Origin: Palaeococcus pacificus DY20341
GTDB lineage: Archaea > Methanobacteriota_B > Thermococci > Thermococcales > Thermococcaceae
Length of the DNA: 64,000 nucleotides
Direction: 5' to 3'
Assembly (NCBI RefSeq): GCF_000725425.1
Contig: NZ_CP006019.1
Coordinates: forward strand, 1,524,480-1,588,479
A model generated the notes under the pieces. It searched no databases. It was not told the DNA's origin and saw only the letters and a list, made by a program, of their open reading frames with translations. This document shows, in pieces, positions 17,642 through 25,003 of this stretch. Both the position numbers and the translations under genes were made by a program. Numbering within the stretch: position 1 is the stretch's first letter; each line of letters starts with the position of its first letter.

Positions 17642-17839
17642 TCAAACTTCTTCAAGCTTTTTCTTGACCTCTTCGGTGTTTTTCTTTGTCTCTTCAAGAG
17701 AGTTCCTTAAGTTGTTGAGCTCTACTTTAAGCTCACTTAAAGTTTTGTTCATCTGGTAAAATGCGAAGACCATTATCACTATCAATATAAGCCCCAAGAC
17801 AATTGAAATCCATCCGCTTGGCGTTCCGCTATACGGCAT
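17642..17839 (-). CDS. Small single-TM protein with cytoplasmic coiled coil
   Basis: This 65-residue protein has one hydrophobic helix (about 10-30, WISIVLGLILIVIMVFAFY) followed by a heptad-rich charged tail rich in Glu, Lys and Leu, ending KKKLEEV. It lies 3 nt downstream of the ArsR-type regulator, with ribosome binding site GAGGAGTGAG. A protein of the same plan (23223-23444, ending NKILEEV) is encoded in the second half of this cluster, so the two are probably paralogues. No enzyme function is visible. A scaffold or accessory role is a guess. Confidence 0.7.
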   Translation of the reverse strand: MPYSGTPSGWISIVLGLILIVIMVFAFYQMNKTLSELKVELNNLRNSLEETKKNTEEVKKKLEEV

Positions 17840-17842
17840 TTC

Positions 17843-18139
17843 TCACTCCTCCTTCAGATTTTTTATAACATCATTATCAATCAAAATCCTAAAAGCTTTT
17901 GCCTTGTAGTACTTCTTAGCCCTCGGATCTCCAGGCTCTAAGCGAAGTTCGCTTTCAACCAAACTGGCCTTCTCAAGCTTTTTTAAATGGAGATAGAGCA
18001 GCTGGCGTGATATATTGAGTTCCTTGGCGAGTTCGTAGACATACCATTCCTTTTCGCTGAGCATCTTAAGTATTCTAATCCTTATTGGTGAGCTCAATGC
18101 TTCTCCTATTAGTGCCAGTTCGCCTATTGTCTCGACCAT
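17843..18139 (-). CDS. ArsR-type winged-helix transcriptional regulator
   Basis: This is a regulator of about 98 residues with the ArsR-family helix-turn-helix: ALSSPIRIRILKMLSEKEWYVYELAKELNISRQLLYLHLKKLEKASLVES, followed by a wing with GDPRAKKYYKA. There is no cysteine pair typical of metal sensors. I choose ATG 18139 (GTGAT 4 nt upstream). A longer frame reaches 18253, but a TATA-like AAAGGTTTTTATC at about 18203-18216 lies within it. The region before this start contains half-sites matching the operators at 19676 and 24906, so this is the best candidate regulator of the cluster. Confidence 0.8.
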   Translation of the reverse strand: MVETIGELALIGEALSSPIRIRILKMLSEKEWYVYELAKELNISRQLLYLHLKKLEKASLVESELRLEPGDPRAKKYYKAKAFRILIDNDVIKNLKEE

Positions 18140-18158
18140 AGTCATCACGTAGAAATTT

Positions 18159-18185
18159 GTTACATAAGACATCTTTTGGTTACAT
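18159..18185. promoter_or_regulatory. Direct half-site repeats upstream of the regulator gene
   Basis: GTTACAT occurs at 18159-18165 and 18179-18185, exactly 20 bp apart (two helical turns), around the expected transcription start of the ArsR-type gene. TTACAT is also the core half-site of the palindromes at 19676-19701 and 24906-24931, so autoregulation by the gene product is plausible. This is inference from sequence similarity. Confidence 0.5.
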
Positions 18186-18431
18186 GAATAAATGTTGAAG
18201 AAAGATAAAAACCTTTCCATCTGGGGGCACCGGTTCTGGCGGTATTCTGACATCCTTCATGCCCCCTAAGTTACCCCCTTATTCAGCGTTCTTTCAGTGG
18301 GACCGTTAAAGGTTAAGAGGGTATCCGAATACGCATTTGAATTGTTTTCTGTTGTTCTGATGGGAACGCTGGGGTGAGGGGGAAACTTGGGGAGCTCCGG
18401 GTGATGTTAAAACGATTATTCTGACCCCACG
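18186..18431. other. Intergenic region
   Basis: About 250 bp lie between the regulator gene and the next minus-strand operon end. It holds the regulator's TATA-like element near 18203-18216. I see no tRNA, no repeat and no open frame with a ribosome binding site in the remainder, where the composition is mixed and locally G-rich at 18367-18405. Confidence 0.4.
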
Positions 18432-18599
18432 CTATCTCTTAAAGAGTGCATATATCAGGCCAGCTATTAGGAGGAACGGCAGCAACAGGAAGGCCAGCCT
18501 AAAAAACAAAATAAATATCCAAAGGAATCCAAAGCCCCAAAAGGCCCAGCCAAAACCCCATCTCCTCCTTCCCATCATTGGCCCTCCAAATCCTCTCAT
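18432..18599 (-). CDS. Small hydrophobic membrane protein, Trp/Phe-rich
   Basis: This 55-residue protein begins MRGFGGPMMGRRRWGFGW. It then has two closely spaced hydrophobic stretches rich in Trp and Phe and ends YALFKR. ATG 18599 is chosen because GAGGTGAG stands 6 nt upstream, although a longer frame opens at 18656. It lies 10 nt after the 101-residue gene in the operon headed by the DUF2202 protein. It resembles the Gly/Met/Trp-rich tail style of its neighbours, and the function is unknown. Confidence 0.65.
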   Translation of the reverse strand: MRGFGGPMMGRRRWGFGWAFWGFGFLWIFILFFRLAFLLLPFLLIAGLIYALFKR

Positions 18600-18609
18600 A
18601 TTTCTCACC

Positions 18610-18915
18610 TCACTCAGGCAGATAAAGCCATCCCACGATTGTTTCTCCATAGTCAAGCGTCACTTTAACCCCAAAAGGTGTTTGATACGCACTTCCAATG
18701 CTCAGCTCATCAATGGAGTAATCACCAGCAATTTTCCCAATGTAGTGTCCATAACTGTCGCTGAGCTTTTGAACAATTCCTTTAGATGTTTTAAACTTCT
18801 CAATTTTTACCTTTTTGAGGACTTTTAGAGCATCTTCCTTAATTTCCTCAACATCAATCTCCTCAATTGGGAATTCGCCATATTCAACGAAGTGCCAAAC
18901 TTTAACAGCTTCCAT
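18610..18915 (-). CDS. Conserved protein sharing a domain with the 24411-24890 product
   Basis: This 101-residue soluble protein has a C-terminal half (GIVQKLSDSYGHYIGKIAGDYSIDELSI ... FGVKVTLDYGETIVGWLYLP) that aligns by eye with the C-terminus of the exported 159-residue protein at 24411-24890 (GITVQKLVYDGDYVGKIVGDYDLSELSI ...). It has no signal peptide, so it is probably the cytoplasmic paralogue. The ribosome binding site GGAGGAGGT precedes the ATG. It is encoded 43 nt downstream of a DUF2202 gene and is probably in its operon. Function unknown. Confidence 0.75.
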   Translation of the reverse strand: MEAVKVWHFVEYGEFPIEEIDVEEIKEDALKVLKKVKIEKFKTSKGIVQKLSDSYGHYIGKIAGDYSIDELSIGSAYQTPFGVKVTLDYGETIVGWLYLPE

Positions 18916-18958
18916 ATTTACCTCCTCCTTCTTTAAAGGTTAGAGAAAAAACGAAAGC

Positions 18959-19660
18959 TCATCTTCTACCTCCAAACCCTTTCATGCCTCTTCCCATTTG
19001 GCCTCTGCTCATTGAGCTTGAAACTATCTCTTGATATTGCTCCTCGCTGATAACTTGAGGCTCATAGCTCACACCATAAGTGCTCAACGTCCTTGTGAAT
19101 GCCCTTAAGTGGCTCTCTGAGCCGCTTATGAGGCTCTCGTAGACTTGGATTATATCCGCGTTGTCGGTCTTAGCTATCCACTCCTCCAGATCCTTAATGT
19201 CAACTTCCTCTATCAGTGCACCAACCTTCAAAGCGTCCTCTAATGACTGGCTTCCCTGAACGATTAACTGGTCGTAAAGCTCTTGGAGCTCTGGGTTTGT
19301 GAAGACTCCAACCTCGTCAACTGCCGGATCGGTGAGGTTGTACTTCTCAATGAGTGAGAGTATTGCATCGGTGTGCGTTTGCTCGCTTTGGGCAATGTTT
19401 TGGAATACTGGAAGACCGTACATCTCGTAGAGCGTTAGGTAAACGTCCCTCGCCAACTTCTCCTCCTCACGCATGTAGAGTAAGCCATCAATCTCCTCTT
19501 GGCTTAAACTGCTTGTCTCGTAGATTCCAATATATGGCCTATCTTCAACCGCTTGACCCTTATCCCATGTCTCTGCCCACCACGGCATCGCAGCTACGCT
19601 ACCAAGGATCACTCCAAAGAGGATCCCCAACAATCCAATTCCCAACAATTTTTTCCTCAT
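18959..19660 (-). CDS. Exported DUF2202 ferritin-like protein
   Basis: This 233-residue protein has a signal peptide (MRKKLLGIGLLGILFGVILGSVAAM) and a DUF2202 four-helix ferritin-like domain. Candidate di-iron ligands occur in helix order: Glu65-67 in REEEKLARD, Glu93/His96 in SEQTH, Glu151/152 in ALIEEVD and Glu182/His184 in SESHL. The C-terminus is Gly/Arg/Met-rich. ATG 19660 follows GAGAGGTGG, and the ATG at 19678 is part of that site. The promoter carries BRE/TATA CGAAAACTTTATAAA and a 26-bp palindromic operator. The role (metal binding, peroxide defence or surface redox) is unproven. Confidence 0.85.
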   Translation of the reverse strand: MRKKLLGIGLLGILFGVILGSVAAMPWWAETWDKGQAVEDRPYIGIYETSSLSQEEIDGLLYMREEEKLARDVYLTLYEMYGLPVFQNIAQSEQTHTDAILSLIEKYNLTDPAVDEVGVFTNPELQELYDQLIVQGSQSLEDALKVGALIEEVDIKDLEEWIAKTDNADIIQVYESLISGSESHLRAFTRTLSTYGVSYEPQVISEEQYQEIVSSSMSRGQMGRGMKGFGGRR

Positions 19661-19675
19661 GTTCTTCCACCTCTC

Positions 19676-19701
19676 CATATGTAAGTCTAATATTACATAT
19701 G
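19676..19701. promoter_or_regulatory. 26-bp palindromic operator (copy 1)
   Basis: Arms CATATGTAA (19676-19684) and TTACATATG (19693-19701) are perfect inverted repeats around an 8-bp spacer. The site lies about 10 nt downstream of the TATA box (TTTATAAA, near 19711-19718, minus strand) of the DUF2202 operon and runs into its ribosome binding site. A repressor bound here would cover the transcription start. A nearly identical promoter plus operator occurs at 24906-24960. Confidence 0.8.
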
Positions 19702-19770
19702 CATCAATAGTTTATAAAGTTTTCGGTTAAAGCACAAGGATTAAAAAGCGAGCAGTACTCACCTCGCGCC

Positions 19771-20841
19771 ATGAGAAGCGAAAAAACGCTCACAAGGATG
19801 CTCATCGAAGAATGGTTATTCTCCCTATCATTAATTGCACTATTTATAACTTCTTTGTATGCAAAAAGAATACCCTCGTATCCTCTAAACGACTTTAAAG
19901 TTGTCTTCACGCTGTTTGTGTTTTTAGTCATAATAAAAGGTTTAGAAAAGAGCGGCTTTCTAAAGGCTTTAGCATCAAGATTTGAAGGAAATCACATTGG
20001 AACAAGGCTTATACTTCTAACGGCTGTGCTTTCAATGTTCATAACCAACGATGTGGCCCTCTTAACAGTTGTTCCACTAACGCTTGCGCTGGAGATTGAA
20101 AACGTGGAGATGCTGATCATATTGGAAACAATAGCAGCAAATGGAGCCTCAGCGCTCACTCCTTTTGGAAACCCCCAAAACATTTTCATCTATTACCATT
20201 ACCACGTTCATCCAGCCGAATTTGTCAAAACAATTGCTCCATTCACATTCATGTCCATTGCATTTGTGCTCCTTCTCTCGTGGAAAAACACAAACATTCA
20301 GCATTTCAATGCCAATGTGGCTAAACTCCAAGAAAAGGCGTATCTCTATCTAACCTTTTTCTTACTTTTTATAATGGCAGTTTTGAGAATCGTTCCGCTG
20401 TTGATTGGCATAATCCCCATAGTCTACGCTTTTATTAAAGACAGAGAAGCTTTGAAGGTAGATTACTTCCTCCTCGGAACGTTCTTAGCGTTCTTTGGAT
20501 TCACTGACAACATGATGCATATAATCAGTCTCTCACTCGACTCACCTCAAAAAGTTTTTCTTACATCAGCGCTTCTAAGCCAAGTTATAAGCAATGTTCC
20601 CTCTACTCTCCTCCTAGCGGACTTCACTGAAAATTGGAGAGCTCTGCTCTGGGGCGTAAGTGTTGGCGGGTATGGCACACTCATAGGGTCTTTAGCAAGC
20701 TTAATCTCCTACAGGCTCTACAAAGCGAAATATGGAAACTCAAAAGAGTATTTAGTTAGGTTCCACATTTACAATGTTTTGGCATTTATAGTTGGGATTA
20801 TCACATGGTTCCTATTCGGCAACTGTTTAGCATGCAAATAA
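19771..20841 (+). CDS. ArsB/NhaD-superfamily ion transporter
   Basis: This 356-residue polytopic protein has about ten hydrophobic helices. The conserved ion-transporter blocks FITNDVALLTVVPLTLALE and ANGASALTPFGNPQN match the two re-entrant substrate loops of the ArsB/NhaD/SLC13-like superfamily. The C-terminal repeat has FFGFTDNMMHI and ISNVPSTLLLADFT. The substrate (anion, Na+/H+ or arsenite) cannot be told. No ribosome binding site precedes ATG 19771, but a TATA-like ATTAAAAAG lies about 27 nt upstream, so the mRNA is probably leaderless. It is divergent from the DUF2202 operon and shares its intergenic region. Confidence 0.8.
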   Translation: MRSEKTLTRMLIEEWLFSLSLIALFITSLYAKRIPSYPLNDFKVVFTLFVFLVIIKGLEKSGFLKALASRFEGNHIGTRLILLTAVLSMFITNDVALLTVVPLTLALEIENVEMLIILETIAANGASALTPFGNPQNIFIYYHYHVHPAEFVKTIAPFTFMSIAFVLLLSWKNTNIQHFNANVAKLQEKAYLYLTFFLLFIMAVLRIVPLLIGIIPIVYAFIKDREALKVDYFLLGTFLAFFGFTDNMMHIISLSLDSPQKVFLTSALLSQVISNVPSTLLLADFTENWRALLWGVSVGGYGTLIGSLASLISYRLYKAKYGNSKEYLVRFHIYNVLAFIVGIITWFLFGNCLACK

Positions 20842-20854
20842 AAAGAGAAAAGCA

Positions 20855-21598
20855 TCAGCCAGAATCCCCAGTCTCGATTGGGCTGTTTATTATCTCCTCA
20901 TACTCCTCTTTGCTTAAATATTGAGGCTCATAGGTAATACCGTAGTTCTTGAGATTTGATACAAATGACCTTAAGTGGTTCCTTGATCCCTTCATCAAGT
21001 TTTCATAGACCGTTATTATGTCCTGCTTATCGGTCTTTGAAATCCATTTTTGTAGGTCCACTATGTCGAGCTCTTCAATCATTGCCCCCACTGTGAGCGC
21101 ATCTTCAACGCTTTTGCTCCCTTTCTCAACGAGCTGGTTGTAGAGCTCTTGGAGTTCTGGATTGCTGAACTTCCCCACCTCATCAATAACTGGGTCTTCA
21201 AGGCCGTATTTATCAATTAAAAGCTTCACTGTATCCATATGTGTTTGCTCACTCTTAGCTATGTTATTGAATATCGGCAAATCCCATTTCTCGTAGAGTG
21301 TTAAGTAAACATCCCTCGCTAATTTCTCTTCTTCACGCATCCAAAGGATCCCTTGCTTTTCTTCATCCGTTAATGGAGACATGGGAACTGAGTCAATGTA
21401 ATCTTTGAGCGTCTGCACATCTATGGAAGTGCTACCATTTGCTCCAACGGATATTGCTATTGGCCCTTTTCCTTCGGGGGGACCTCTTTGTCCCTGAGTT
21501 GTAGAAGTCGTTGATGTTTCTTGAGTCTGACTTATACACCCCGCGGCAATACCCACCAATACTACCCCAATAATGGCAAAAACAAGTGCCGTTTTCAT
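20855..21598 (-). CDS. DUF2202 ferritin-like lipoprotein
   Basis: This protein of about 247 residues has signal sequence MKTALVFAIIGVVLVG with lipobox IAAGC, a Thr/Ser/Gln-rich linker, and a DUF2202 domain clearly paralogous to the 18959-19660 product (REEEKLARDVYLTLYEKW, AKSEQTH, MIEELDI, KGSRNHLRSF). The last block has Asn in place of one Glu. The chosen ATG 21598 begins the signal peptide, whereas a longer frame from 21643 would precede it with charged residues. It has its own upstream region and lacks the palindromic operator of its paralogue. Confidence 0.83.
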   Translation of the reverse strand: MKTALVFAIIGVVLVGIAAGCISQTQETSTTSTTQGQRGPPEGKGPIAISVGANGSTSIDVQTLKDYIDSVPMSPLTDEEKQGILWMREEEKLARDVYLTLYEKWDLPIFNNIAKSEQTHMDTVKLLIDKYGLEDPVIDEVGKFSNPELQELYNQLVEKGSKSVEDALTVGAMIEELDIVDLQKWISKTDKQDIITVYENLMKGSRNHLRSFVSNLKNYGITYEPQYLSKEEYEEIINSPIETGDSG

Positions 21599-21722
21599 GG
21601 CACCATTCCCCAAGAGAATATTTTCAAAAGGATTAATAAACATTATGTTTGAATTTAGTGAGTTGATTATATCATCTGCTTATTTTAGCCTTAGGAATGC
21701 TAAAAATAAGCTAGAAAAAAGA

Positions 21723-22895
21723 TCAAGGCTTTCCTTTTTTGCCTATAGGGGCTGGCTTATTCTCTCTCATCATTTCCTTTCCGTTCATGTAGCACGTCTT
21801 GACCTCATTCCTTAGCTTTACCATTAGCTCCTGGGCCAAGTCGTAGTCGCCGTTTTTAATCGCTGCCCTAACTTGTTCCATTATTTGAATAGCGACTGTT
21901 ACGTTTACACCAACTCTCTCCATTACCCTTATCTGTGCTTCAACTCTAACGAGCTCTCTTTCAAGTTTCATCTTTGTGTTATCCATTAATTGCTTCCTCA
22001 TATCTTCTCCAGCGAGCTTGATTATAACATCTGTCTTTGATTTTGCGGCTATTGCCAAACCATATGCTGAGCCATACTTTTCATTGCCGTATGCCTCCTT
22101 TGCATCCTCAAGCTGCTTCTCTGCTATTGCCAAAAGGGTCTCCACTGCAGGATTTGTAGTATTTTGGGCGAGTTCTTTGGCTAGGGCTATTTTCTCCTCC
22201 GCCAAGTTTATTGCCTCAAGCGCTCTCTCCGCAGTCATGTTAACTTGAACTCTCGTGCAGTTGCACTCAGGCTTTTCTTCAAGCTGCTCTCTAACTCTAA
22301 GCATTGTCTTGTTCATGTAAGGTGTCTCTATCATAGTGAACTCCTGCACCTTAACTTTTAACTGCTTAATAGTCCTTGTAATGTTCGTGTTTTGATTTAC
22401 AAAGACCATCATAGCCCTCCCTTGAATCGCCAGCTCCAGAGCTTTTTGTATTCCCATTGTGTCGTTGCCAACGGCTAAGATCACCTTGTTCTGCAGTTGA
22501 AGGTTGAACTTTAGTGTGACGTTGTTTATAACTGCTATATTCGTCTCGTACCTGTTCTCTCCCCACCATCTCTCGACTGTTATGCCTATGTTTTGCAAGT
22601 CTTCAACGTATTCCTCGGGTACGGCGACAGGTCCACCTAGGATTATCACTTCATCTGGCGCGTGGCTTATTATATCAGCAGTTATGTTTGGGTCGTAAAC
22701 TCCCCACGGTGTTTTTACAACGACAACATCGGTTAAGTTTGAAATGTAGTCAGCTAAGGCACAATCCGCTTCGTTGTCGCTTACTAATATTATCACGTTT
22801 ATATCAACGTTGGTGCTCTCGGCTTTGATGAGAGGCACTCCACTCGCTAAAACTAAAAGCCCGAACATTATTGCCAGGGCTTTTTTCCACACCAT
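21723..22895 (-). CDS. Exported protein with cell-wall-binding-repeat-2-like domain
   Basis: This 390-residue secreted protein has a signal peptide ending near VPLIKAES. Residues about 30-180 read as a CWB2-type repeat region: a DYISNLTDVVVVKTPWG strand-turn, VIILGGPVAVPEEYVEDL, then RWWGENRYETN, all hallmarks of that family in Thermococcales surface proteins. The rest is helical and charged (GEDMRKQLMDN ... RVEAQIRVMERVGV), with a Lys/Gly/Pro tail. There are many Asn-x-Thr sequons. The ribosome binding site GAGGTGATTAG and a TATA element (ACTTAAATAAG) are clear. It is probably S-layer or envelope associated; the function is not known. Confidence 0.8.
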   Translation of the reverse strand: MVWKKALAIMFGLLVLASGVPLIKAESTNVDINVIILVSDNEADCALADYISNLTDVVVVKTPWGVYDPNITADIISHAPDEVIILGGPVAVPEEYVEDLQNIGITVERWWGENRYETNIAVINNVTLKFNLQLQNKVILAVGNDTMGIQKALELAIQGRAMMVFVNQNTNITRTIKQLKVKVQEFTMIETPYMNKTMLRVREQLEEKPECNCTRVQVNMTAERALEAINLAEEKIALAKELAQNTTNPAVETLLAIAEKQLEDAKEAYGNEKYGSAYGLAIAAKSKTDVIIKLAGEDMRKQLMDNTKMKLERELVRVEAQIRVMERVGVNVTVAIQIMEQVRAAIKNGDYDLAQELMVKLRNEVKTCYMNGKEMMRENKPAPIGKKGKP

Positions 22896-23222
22896 ATCTA
22901 ATCACCTCACTTTATTCTTATGAAAAACTCTTATTTAAGTTTTTTTCACGAAATCGTCAACAAAAATTCACGTTTGTTCAAATTAGGGAAAATACGCAGG
23001 AGATCTTGACTCCTTATGTTTAATCACGTTCGTGAGGGTTTATCTTTGTTTAATTATACTTTTCTTTGCTTTAAATATTAAATGGGCACCTACTAGGGCT
23101 TAACAGCAGATTAGAACTGCTCCGAGTGTGTGTTGCTCACAATTTCGCTGGGACAGCCATTCAAAGCTAAGCAAATGGAAGTAAGGGAGCACATGATAAA
23201 GCCGCTAAGCCTTTTCATGATC
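22896..23222. other. Intergenic region, no gene seen
   Basis: These 327 bp contain the promoter of the gene at 22895 (minus-strand TATA about 22935-22945) and the 3' end of the upstream operon. I looked for a tRNA, a C/D-box RNA or a short frame with a ribosome binding site and found none that convinced me. The segment 23080-23190 is more mixed in composition than its surroundings and could hold an unrecognised small RNA. Confidence 0.4.
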
Positions 23223-23444
23223 CTACACCTCTTCTAGTATTTTGTTTATTTCTTCACTCTCATTCCTGAGCTCCTGAGCCACAGCGCTTATCTCTTTCAT
23301 TTCATCAGCTATAGCATCCAAATTCTTCTTCATGAGGTATACTGATACCGTCATTATTACGAGCAGCACTGCCCAAAAAGCCACGATTAAATAGTCAGTC
23401 CTTGTCATCTCACCATAAAAAGTTGGGAAGTAAGGGCCGGGCAC
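23223..23444 (-). CDS. Small single-TM protein with coiled coil (paralogue of 17642-17839)
   Basis: This protein of up to 73 residues has a hydrophobic helix (YLIVAFWAVLLVIMTVSVYLM) followed by a Glu-rich amphipathic helix ending INKILEEV, the same plan and ending as the 65-residue protein at 17642-17839. GTG 23444 is 1 nt after the stop codon of the DUF4405 gene. An internal ATG at 23408 is possible. It is the last gene of the operon led by the 159-residue exported protein. Function unknown. Confidence 0.7.
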   Translation of the reverse strand: MPGPYFPTFYGEMTRTDYLIVAFWAVLLVIMTVSVYLMKKNLDAIADEMKEISAVAQELRNESEEINKILEEV

Positions 23445-23445
23445 C

Positions 23446-24114
23446 TCAGCCGCCCTCCTTTACTTTAATTATTGCTTCAGCCAGCATGTCCTTAAACACC
23501 TCTCTATCAAGTTCATTCTTAATCTCTATGCTCTCCAATAGCTCATCTGCTTGGGCCTCAATACCATAGTCCTCATTAAGAACCCGTATGAGCTCATCCA
23601 CAGGGACATCGTAGAGCTGGGCAATCTGCTCTAAAGTGTAGCTCTTCAACATGCTCCCGGTAATTTCAATGGTGGTGTTGTCGTAGCTCACCGTGGTGTT
23701 GGTATCCTCATAAGTAATCTCGGAGGTGTCCTCTTCTCCCTCTATTGAGTTCCATGTGTAAGCCACCGCTCCTCCAATGAGCACCATCACGACGAGGATT
23801 AGCCCTAATGTGGCCTTCACATTTATCGACTTGGTCTTCCTATCCCTGATCATGGCTTTAACTTGATTTACAAGGGGAGCTAAGTTTACCACTATGTGAA
23901 TCCCTACTAAAGGAACCATTGCAATTCCAAAGTATATGTGCAAAGCGTCCCATAATGCTCTGCTGATTCCTAAGAACGTCCATCCTGTCACTTCCGCAAT
24001 CCTACCGCTTGGAGCGAAGTATAATGCAATTCCCGAAAGTGCTGCTACAATAAAGTCAATCGTCAGCAAAACATCGATTGTGGGTCTAACCCACCTCGGC
24101 AACTTCATGGCCAT
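23446..24114 (-). CDS. DUF4405 cytochrome-b-like membrane protein with extracytoplasmic tail
   Basis: This protein of about 222 residues has three N-terminal helices of the DUF4405 (cytochrome b561-like) type. His59 in DALHIYFG and His73 in VGIHIVVN are placed as potential heme ligands. A fourth helix (LGLILVVMVLIGGAVAYTW) leads to a Thr/Glu-rich segment and a helical C-terminal domain (LEQIAQLYDVPVDELIRVLNEDYG ... VFKDMLAEAIIKVKEGG). ATG 24114 shares its A with the upstream TGA; ATG 24108 is also served by GGTGAT. A transmembrane electron-transfer role is inferred. Heme content is untested. Confidence 0.75.
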   Translation of the reverse strand: MAMKLPRWVRPTIDVLLTIDFIVAALSGIALYFAPSGRIAEVTGWTFLGISRALWDALHIYFGIAMVPLVGIHIVVNLAPLVNQVKAMIRDRKTKSINVKATLGLILVVMVLIGGAVAYTWNSIEGEEDTSEITYEDTNTTVSYDNTTIEITGSMLKSYTLEQIAQLYDVPVDELIRVLNEDYGIEAQADELLESIEIKNELDREVFKDMLAEAIIKVKEGG

Positions 24115-24269
24115 CACCCACAATCAGCTTTCAAACATTCTGCTTCCTCGTTTTTGTAATATTCCTTGAAATATGCCCCAACTATAAAAAACATAACCAC
24201 AAAGAACAATACCACTAAAGTAAATCCTCCTATGAGCACGAACTCTGGTCTTACAAATCCTTCCATCAT
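24114..24269 (-). CDS. 51-residue single-TM microprotein
   Basis: This short frame reads MMEGFVRPEFVLIGGFTLVV, then a Phe/Val-rich membrane helix, then a short tail with two cysteines (AECLKADCG). Its TGA overlaps the ATG of the DUF4405 gene (TGATG), so the two are likely translationally coupled. AAGGA lies just before the start. Two cysteines in a short tail beside a putative b-type cytochrome suggest an accessory subunit. That is a guess, and expression is unproven. Confidence 0.6.
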   Translation of the reverse strand: MMEGFVRPEFVLIGGFTLVVLFFVVMFFIVGAYFKEYYKNEEAECLKADCG

Positions 24270-24376
24270 TCCTTATCCCTCCAGTCTACAGGAACTGCCG
24301 AAGCGACATTTTTCACACTATCCCCATTATCTACAATTAGTAAAAGCAACATTTTAATTTTATTCCAAATTTTCAC
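24266..24376 (-). CDS. Possible 36-residue microprotein
   Basis: A frame from GTG 24376 (6 nt after GAGGTG) reads MKIWNKIKMLLLLIVDNGDS and ends VPVDWRDKE, overlapping the next start (ATGA). It has a basic-hydrophobic N-terminus like a minimal signal anchor. The ribosome binding site and coupling to the next gene are the only support. It may instead be untranslated operon sequence. Confidence 0.35.
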   Translation of the reverse strand: MKIWNKIKMLLLLIVDNGDSVKNVASAVPVDWRDKE

Positions 24377-24410
24377 TTTCACCACCTCAAAAAAGAAAAA
24401 AGTGGAAGGT

Positions 24411-24890
24411 TCAGGCCATCCTGAAAAAGCCTACTATTTGATCACCGTAGCTTAGGAATACTTTAATGCCGTTGACTGTCTCGTAGGCCTTGTAGATGCT
24501 GAGCTCGCTTAGGTCATAGTCACCGACTATCTTGCCGACGTAGTCGCCATCGTAGACGAGTTTTTGAACTGTAATTCCCCTTGGGTTTGTAAACTCTTCA
24601 ACGCTGAGCTGGCTCAAGTACTCTTGCACTTCACCGCTGTCAACGTCAACTTCTTCCAAGTACTGACCGTTTACTCCAAGTCCCATGTATTGGCCCCTCT
24701 CCTCAGCTCTCATTCCATGACCATGGCCCTTCATAGCCATAGCCTGAGCTCCAGCTTGCATATCCTCTTGGGCATAAAGCATTGCATCAGGGTTTGGCCC
24801 TGGCTCTCCTTGATACGCTGCCACTACCCCAAACACTAGGCCAAAGAGGCCCAACATTAACAACCCAATTCCTAATATTTTCTTTCTCAT
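24411..24890 (-). CDS. Exported protein with the domain shared with 18610-18915
   Basis: This 159-residue protein has a signal peptide (MRKKILGIGLLMLGLFGLVFGVVAA) very like that of the DUF2202 protein at 18959-19660. A Met/His/Gly-rich stretch follows (AMAMKGHGHGMRAEERGQYMG). The C-terminal domain (GITVQKLVYDGDYVGKIVGDYDLSELSI) also occurs in the 101-residue product. GAGAGGTG precedes the ATG. Its promoter and 26-bp operator are nearly identical to those at 19676. The His/Met stretch could bind metal, which is inference. It heads an operon with two microproteins, DUF4405 and a coiled-coil protein. Confidence 0.78.
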   Translation of the reverse strand: MRKKILGIGLLMLGLFGLVFGVVAAYQGEPGPNPDAMLYAQEDMQAGAQAMAMKGHGHGMRAEERGQYMGLGVNGQYLEEVDVDSGEVQEYLSQLSVEEFTNPRGITVQKLVYDGDYVGKIVGDYDLSELSIYKAYETVNGIKVFLSYGDQIVGFFRMA

Positions 24891-24905
24891 GTTCCTTCAC
24901 CTCTC

Positions 24906-24931
24906 CATATGTAAGTTCAATATTACATATG
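24906..24931. promoter_or_regulatory. 26-bp palindromic operator (copy 2)
   Basis: Arms CATATGTAA (24906-24914) and TTACATATG (24923-24931) flank an 8-bp spacer differing at two positions from copy 1. The TATA box (minus strand CTTATAAAC, near 24938-24946) and the CGAAAA BRE are also the same as in copy 1. About 60 bp of promoter are thus nearly identical at loci 5.2 kb apart, indicating co-regulation or a recent promoter duplication. Confidence 0.8.
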
Positions 24932-25003
24932 CATCAATAGTTTATAAGCTTTTCGGTTCAAAAAAGCTAAAAGGAGAAACGCATAACAAGAGGAGGGATG
25001 CTT

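Follow-up and report, generated by a model that had tools for sequence, protein, structure and literature searches.

A candidate ArsR-type regulon of exported and membrane proteins in Palaeococcus pacificus and other archaea, with a putative membrane partner for its regulator

Analysis of a 64,000-nucleotide stretch of the genome of Palaeococcus pacificus DY20341 (contig NZ_CP006019.1, positions 1,524,480 to 1,588,479; hereafter the window, with positions counted from its first letter) indicated that a 98-residue ArsR-type repressor probably acts on the palindrome TATGTAA-N8-TTACATA to block transcription initiation, and that this block would be relieved through a small adjoining membrane protein with a transmembrane helix and a coiled coil, designated TMcc. 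On a broader reading, to which we attach about even confidence, several archaeal classes could share an undescribed module for signalling. It would consist of a minimal ArsR-type repressor, a membrane transducer dedicated to it, with a single span and a coiled coil, and a common palindrome, and would control surface-exposed proteins of ferritin-like and metal-binding-like type in Thermococci, Archaeoglobi and Methanosarcinia, Bathyarchaeota having paralogous pairs.

Operators and promoters of the two window operons

Zero-mismatch copies of CATATGTAA-N8-TTACATATG were located at two positions, with none expected from dinucleotide shuffles, and a search of the whole 1,859,370-base pair (bp) genome permitting up to three mismatches returned the same two sites only; a chance palindrome was thereby ruled out. 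The sites and their promoter elements, the latter including a B recognition element (BRE), are as follows.

19676 to 19701, minus strand: operator 1 (CATATGTAATATTAGACTTACATATG), its dyad over the predicted transcription start of the DUF2202 operon (operon 1)
19711 to 19718, minus strand: TATA box TTTATAAA of the DUF2202 operon, with BRE ACCGAAAA immediately upstream
24906 to 24931, minus strand: operator 2 (CATATGTAATATTGAACTTACATATG), ahead of the EXP159/DUF4405 operon (operon 2)
24941 to 24948, minus strand: TATA box CTTATAAA of the EXP159/DUF4405 operon

The preliminary description of this DNA had proposed a near-identical promoter with a 26-bp operator before both operons, and the two palindromes proved to lie exactly where it had placed them. 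BRE ACCGAAAA and the TATA box are common to the two promoters, the TATA-to-operator spacer of 10 bp is identical in both, and the compared bases are equal at 24 of 26 operator and 20 of 24 leader positions, with no notable likeness upstream of the BRE. As regards placement, that description required correction: both operators lie between TATA box and start codon, and if transcription starts, as is usual in archaea, about 26 bp from the centre of the TATA box, each dyad falls on the predicted start site and not upstream of the promoter. TTTATAAA and CTTATAAA start 19 bp ahead of TATGTAA in the window promoters, and a TATA distance of 18–20 bp before the operator was recorded in four of five target classes (63 sites). 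Across genera and five unrelated target families the half-sites are kept while spacer and flanks are more variable; the core that species share is the 22-bp TATGTAA-N8-TTACATA. Often a genome has two operators that match each other completely, spacer included (G086, G087 and G092; loci L156, L155 and L274), pointing to gene conversion between its promoters.

The regulator and its membrane partner

The candidate regulator gene, its promoter element and the partner gene are as follows.

17642 to 17839, minus strand: TMcc, a 65-residue membrane protein whose C-terminal coiled coil ends in KKLEEV; conserved partner of the regulator
17843 to 18139, minus strand: regulator, 98 residues, ArsR-type winged helix by its domain matches (HTH_20/HTH_5), without cysteine
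18160 to 18185, minus strand: tandem half-sites of the regulator promoter, TTACAT at 18160-18165 and 18180-18185, conserved form TATGNAA-N13-TATGNAA

Profile scores of 47.5 bits against HTH_20 (cut-off 27) and 46.5 bits against HTH_5 (cut-off 22) placed the regulator among ArsR-type winged-helix proteins, while the ArsR/SmtB metalloregulator profile NF033788 (NCBIfam) gave 46.6 bits, under its 55-bit cut-off. Among 61 regulator orthologues no cysteine is conserved, a cysteine occupies position 28 in 36, and the one conserved histidine is located in the recognition helix; sensing of metals or thiols by the regulator itself is disfavoured, there being no conserved residues for it.

Two TTACAT half-sites, reported in the preliminary description as lying two turns apart in the regulator promoter, were indeed found there, exactly 20 bp apart and between TATA box and ATG. 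They are conserved in relatives: of 44 related regulator promoters, 19, drawn from several Thermococcaceae genera, match TATGNAA-N13-TATGNAA at no fewer than 11 of the 12 positions, as against approximately none of 2,200 shuffles. Since the regulator lies inside a palindrome-headed operon in many other genomes, autoregulation would appear to be general and arranged in two ways, by tandem half-sites or by membership of a target operon.

The TMcc gene (65–80 residues, one transmembrane helix, C-terminal coiled coil) adjoins the regulator in 63 of 63 distinct loci, and the same holds for all 25 Methanosarcinia loci; in Thermococcales and Archaeoglobales it lies downstream of the regulator, whereas the Methanosarcinia have it upstream. 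With few exceptions the coiled coil terminates in K-L-E/D-E-I/V or something close to it. As the tail preceding the helix, rich in Gly, Ser, Pro, Met and Tyr, contains 1% Lys plus Arg, the protein is probably oriented with its tail outside and its coil inside. No Pfam family scored above cut-off with TMcc, the only coiled-coil matches being at chance level, and no small transmembrane neighbour was seen beside other ArsR genes in the subset of control loci read.

Distribution of the system and its target genes

Regulator orthologues were present in 61 of 94 Thermococcaceae genomes, an operator site with at most one mismatch in 65 and DUF2202 in 60. When only the 74 good-quality genomes were counted, regulator and operator agreed in 70 (53 with both, 17 with neither; one with regulator only, three with operator only), and regulator and DUF2202 in 69 (51 with both, 18 with neither; three with regulator only, two with DUF2202 only). 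The regulator-only genome was G030. Those with operator only were G077, where the operator site precedes an ArsR paralogue, and two fragmented metagenome-assembled genomes (MAGs; G047 and G057) in which a DUF4405- or DUF2202-type site falls near a contig end, so that the regulator was probably left unassembled.

The preliminary description had regarded wide occurrence of the palindrome before unrelated genes as contrary to a regulon. What was found is that all 53 distinct perfect core sites read, a near-unbiased set although short of every genome, lie directly upstream of five families: DUF2202 with signal peptide (21), DUF2202 of lipoprotein type (11), EXP159 (10), N97 (8) and DUF4405 (3). 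One-mismatch sites, which were partly chosen, preceded the same families in 36 of 39 cases, the others lying before a regulator paralogue, at a contig end and at one unexplained position. The regulon is not merely local. Regulator-bearing genomes contain unlinked operator sites hundreds of kilobases off, before N97, lipoprotein DUF2202 and EXP159 genes. N97, a protein of about 100 residues with no Pfam match, is a further operator target in many Thermococcus species; nearly all of its clear homologues in regulator-bearing genomes have the operator, and its strong homologues in regulator-less G031 and G066 have none. Given the distance between N97 operator sites and the regulator gene, the association is not accounted for by linkage alone, and a linkage artefact is weakened as an explanation both by the unlinked sites and by the site-less N97 genes of regulator-less genomes.

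Co-occurrence, distant sites, palindrome-headed regulator operons and the half-sites in its own promoter all lend support to the protein encoded at 17843 as the likely regulator. The earlier picture of the regulon was confirmed as to the operators and supported as to the regulator, and was incomplete in having missed the TMcc partner and the N97 target.

Beyond Thermococcales, the palindrome in Archaeoglobales (L089 and L095) stands at the head of an operon that encodes an exported His/Gly-rich protein, DUF4405, DUF2202, the regulator and TMcc. The regulator was also detected in 76 of 199 Methanosarcinia genomes, where the palindrome-headed operon encodes an exported PepSY-type protein followed by a small membrane protein, TMcc and the regulator; among the 25 loci with enough upstream sequence, TRTGTAA-N8-YTACAYA was perfect in 19 and within one mismatch in 22, compared with 0.6% in shuffles. 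In Bathyarchaeota and G077, paralogous ArsR genes have a similar palindrome directly before them and a membrane coiled-coil gene behind. ArsR paralogues with their own palindrome and an adjoining membrane coiled-coil gene ending in LEE were recorded at loci L235, L113, L115 and L116, which form a second subfamily of the same pairing. In an Archaeoglobaceae MAG a second perfect palindrome (L258:917) lies in the vicinity of a small cupin-like gene and not with any of the known targets.

Two further observations concern operator-headed genes. In G006 and G010 (L163, L164, L264 and L265), DUF2202 genes behind intact operators carry internal stops or frame breaks, which suggests targets decaying recently and before their promoters. 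An operator-headed exported protein at L096:1760-2251 is extremely Met-rich (MMYMPMMYMMQWMPCM), hinting at possible soft-metal binding or oxidant scavenging.

The corresponding genes of the window are listed below.

18432 to 18599, minus strand: p53, a small Gly/Met-rich membrane protein, operon 1
18610 to 18915, minus strand: 101-residue protein without signal peptide, homologue of the EXP159 folded domain, operon 1
18959 to 19660, minus strand: ferritin-like DUF2202 protein with signal peptide, first gene of operon 1
20855 to 21598, minus strand: DUF2202 paralogue of lipoprotein type, without operator here; homologues elsewhere have the operator
23223 to 23444, minus strand: TMcc2, second transmembrane coiled-coil protein, operon 2; start codon uncertain (23444 or 23408)
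23446 to 24108, minus strand: DUF4405 membrane protein, two histidines 14 residues apart in one helix
24114 to 24269, minus strand: small 51-residue membrane protein, operon 2
24411 to 24890, minus strand: EXP159, exported, with a His/Met-rich disordered N-terminal part and a confidently modelled alpha/beta C-terminal domain, first gene of operon 2

The ferritin-like character assigned to DUF2202 in the preliminary description was confirmed: the two window proteins scored 213.4 and 232.5 bits against Pfam PF09968 (cut-off 22), Glu and His positions suited to metal binding are conserved, and the structural model was best matched by MJ0754 (TM-score 0.96), then weakly by Dps-like proteins and bacterioferritins. 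MJ0754, the DUF2202 protein of Methanocaldococcus jannaschii (3Q4N and 3Q4R, one structure with Zn2+; E 2e-63), differs from the window members in that these possess a signal peptide or lipoprotein signal and sit in an operator-controlled regulon. The description of DUF4405 as cytochrome-like amounts to a family match only (55.9 bits against PF14358, cut-off 26.7); the His-14-His spacing is kept among members. For EXP159, the predicted structure of the C-terminal domain (predicted local distance difference test, pLDDT, >90) combines alpha helix with six strands, and, as the structure search gave no significant PDB match, no function was assigned. That exported stretches rich in Met, His and Gly keep recurring hints, as a guess, at metal or oxidant handling at the surface.

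A CitMHS/ArsB-type transporter gene (19771-20841, plus strand) diverges from the DUF2202 operon across operator 1, whose control it may share; the same divergent pair occurs at L153, L232 and L233. Between the two operons lies a gene for a 390-residue exported protein with a weak match to CWB2, a cell-wall-binding family (21723-22895, minus strand), the place of which behind DUF4405/TMcc2 is kept in several species.

Proposed mechanism, alternatives and related systems

From the observed conservation, geometry, co-occurrence and adjacency we infer binding, repression, a role for TMcc and the kind of signal. The 98-residue repressor would bind TATGTAA-N8-TTACATA as a dimer and, since the dyad falls on the predicted start, would hinder RNA polymerase rather than TATA-binding protein and transcription factor B (TBP/TFB). 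TMcc is proposed as the signal carrier because the regulator has no conserved cysteine and its one conserved histidine is committed to the recognition helix: with its short N-terminal tail outside and its coiled coil inside, it would pass a signal to the repressor by contacting or sequestering it. Tandem half-sites, or location in a target operon, would provide for autoregulation, and the output would be mostly exported, comprising DUF2202 and EXP159 (in methanogens a PepSY protein) as well as membrane proteins of the DUF4405 family, to which many Thermococcus species would add N97. The signal itself may be envelope, metal or oxidant stress.

Several points weigh against this account. Adjacency of TMcc to the regulator is no proof of contact between them; tandem half-sites are weak or missing in around half of the regulator promoters tested; G030 has regulator and TMcc and no adjoining operator within two mismatches; and the N97 genes of G028 and G040 are without operator. 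Moreover, the core gene cluster is linked, Fisher values for co-occurrence ignore shared ancestry, and the site sets are composed as stated above.

The most serious alternative, possible though clearly the less favoured, is that the regulator binds the palindrome and senses a ligand directly (a small molecule, an oxidant, or a metal at a non-canonical site), TMcc being only an output of the regulon such as a small envelope-stabilising protein. The location of TMcc genes inside the regulated operon, the presence of TMcc2 in the DUF4405 operon without an adjoining regulator, and the cysteine at position 28 in 36 of 61 regulators are all in keeping with it; the lack of any conserved cysteine, the adjacency kept in 63 of 63 loci despite switched gene order and changing other targets, and the retention of a similar partner by paralogous ArsR genes without a surface-protein operon weigh against it. 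It is improbable that the regulator is an activator at these promoters, since the operator lies over the predicted start, downstream of a good BRE/TATA, whereas archaeal activators usually bind upstream of the BRE; nevertheless some archaeal ArsR-like regulators, SurR for example, both activate and repress (PMC8595942).

Still less probable is that a different DNA-binding protein reads the palindrome with the ArsR gene a mere passenger. Clustered genes are co-inherited, but operators occur hundreds of kilobases away in regulator-bearing genomes while the N97 genes of G031 and G066 are site-less, the palindrome is found before the regulator operon in three classes of archaea and, in a fourth group, before paralogous regulators, and half-sites are present in the promoter of the regulator gene itself. 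An explanation by recent duplication of a cassette of promoter and signal peptide, of no regulatory meaning, is scarcely credible: the two window promoters resemble each other all the way from BRE to start codon and identical site pairs elsewhere (G086, G087 and G092, for instance) suggest copying or gene conversion, yet sites track the regulator, and half-sites are conserved across genera and five unrelated families while spacer and flanks drift.

Phr, the Pyrococcus heat-shock repressor, blocks initiation at the start site. It is an ArsR-type winged-helix protein and the nearest solved relative of the regulator (2P4W, E 1.5e-7), but the latter has 98 as opposed to about 200 residues, no C-terminal domain, another operator and other targets, and a membrane-protein pairing; its match to the Phr profile NF053602 (NCBIfam) was N-terminal only and at 37.8 bits far below the cut-off of 320, so it is not a member. 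Phr is a negative regulator that reads a palindrome (PMC10746257).

In Bacillus subtilis, the small ArsR-type autorepressor SdpR shares a two-gene operon with the membrane protein SdpI, which upon an outside signal captures it at the membrane (PMC1626106); TMcc may act in a comparable way. SdpI, however, is polytopic and an immunity protein, whereas TMcc has one transmembrane helix and a coiled coil. As the regulator scored 31.6 bits against the SdpR family (cut-off 100) and a Pfam search with TMcc reached no cut-off that would make it homologous to SdpI, the resemblance would be one of working and not of descent.

SurR and CopR are likewise winged-helix regulators of Thermococcales with defined motifs: SurR has a CxxC redox switch and the motif GTTn3AAC (PMC8595942), and CopR a TRASH metal domain (PMC7830388). 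The present regulator has neither CxxC nor TRASH and is associated with TATGTAA-N8-TTACATA; with half-site TATGTAA instead of GTTn3AAC and a regulator without cysteine, the genes do not belong to the SurR regulon.

No paper in the open-access literature was found to name DUF2202, COG4902 or MJ0754. These genes go unmentioned in the searched passages of papers that deal with T. onnurineus, T. barophilus and P. yayanosii, with iron stress in T. kodakarensis and with the heat and copper responses of P. furiosus. The Thermococcales regulators described in the open-access texts read other motifs. Comparative-genomic regulons for P. furiosus exist in RegPrecise (PMC10746257). An ArsR-type regulon is known in kind and an earlier description of this one is possible, the unusual part being the apparently obligatory membrane partner.

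The widespread ferritin-like family DUF2202 would hereby gain its first regulatory context, and more uncharacterised families would join the same response. With no obvious sensor site and a tiny membrane protein as its constant companion, the repressor points to a simple route by which surface conditions may be reported to promoters in archaea.

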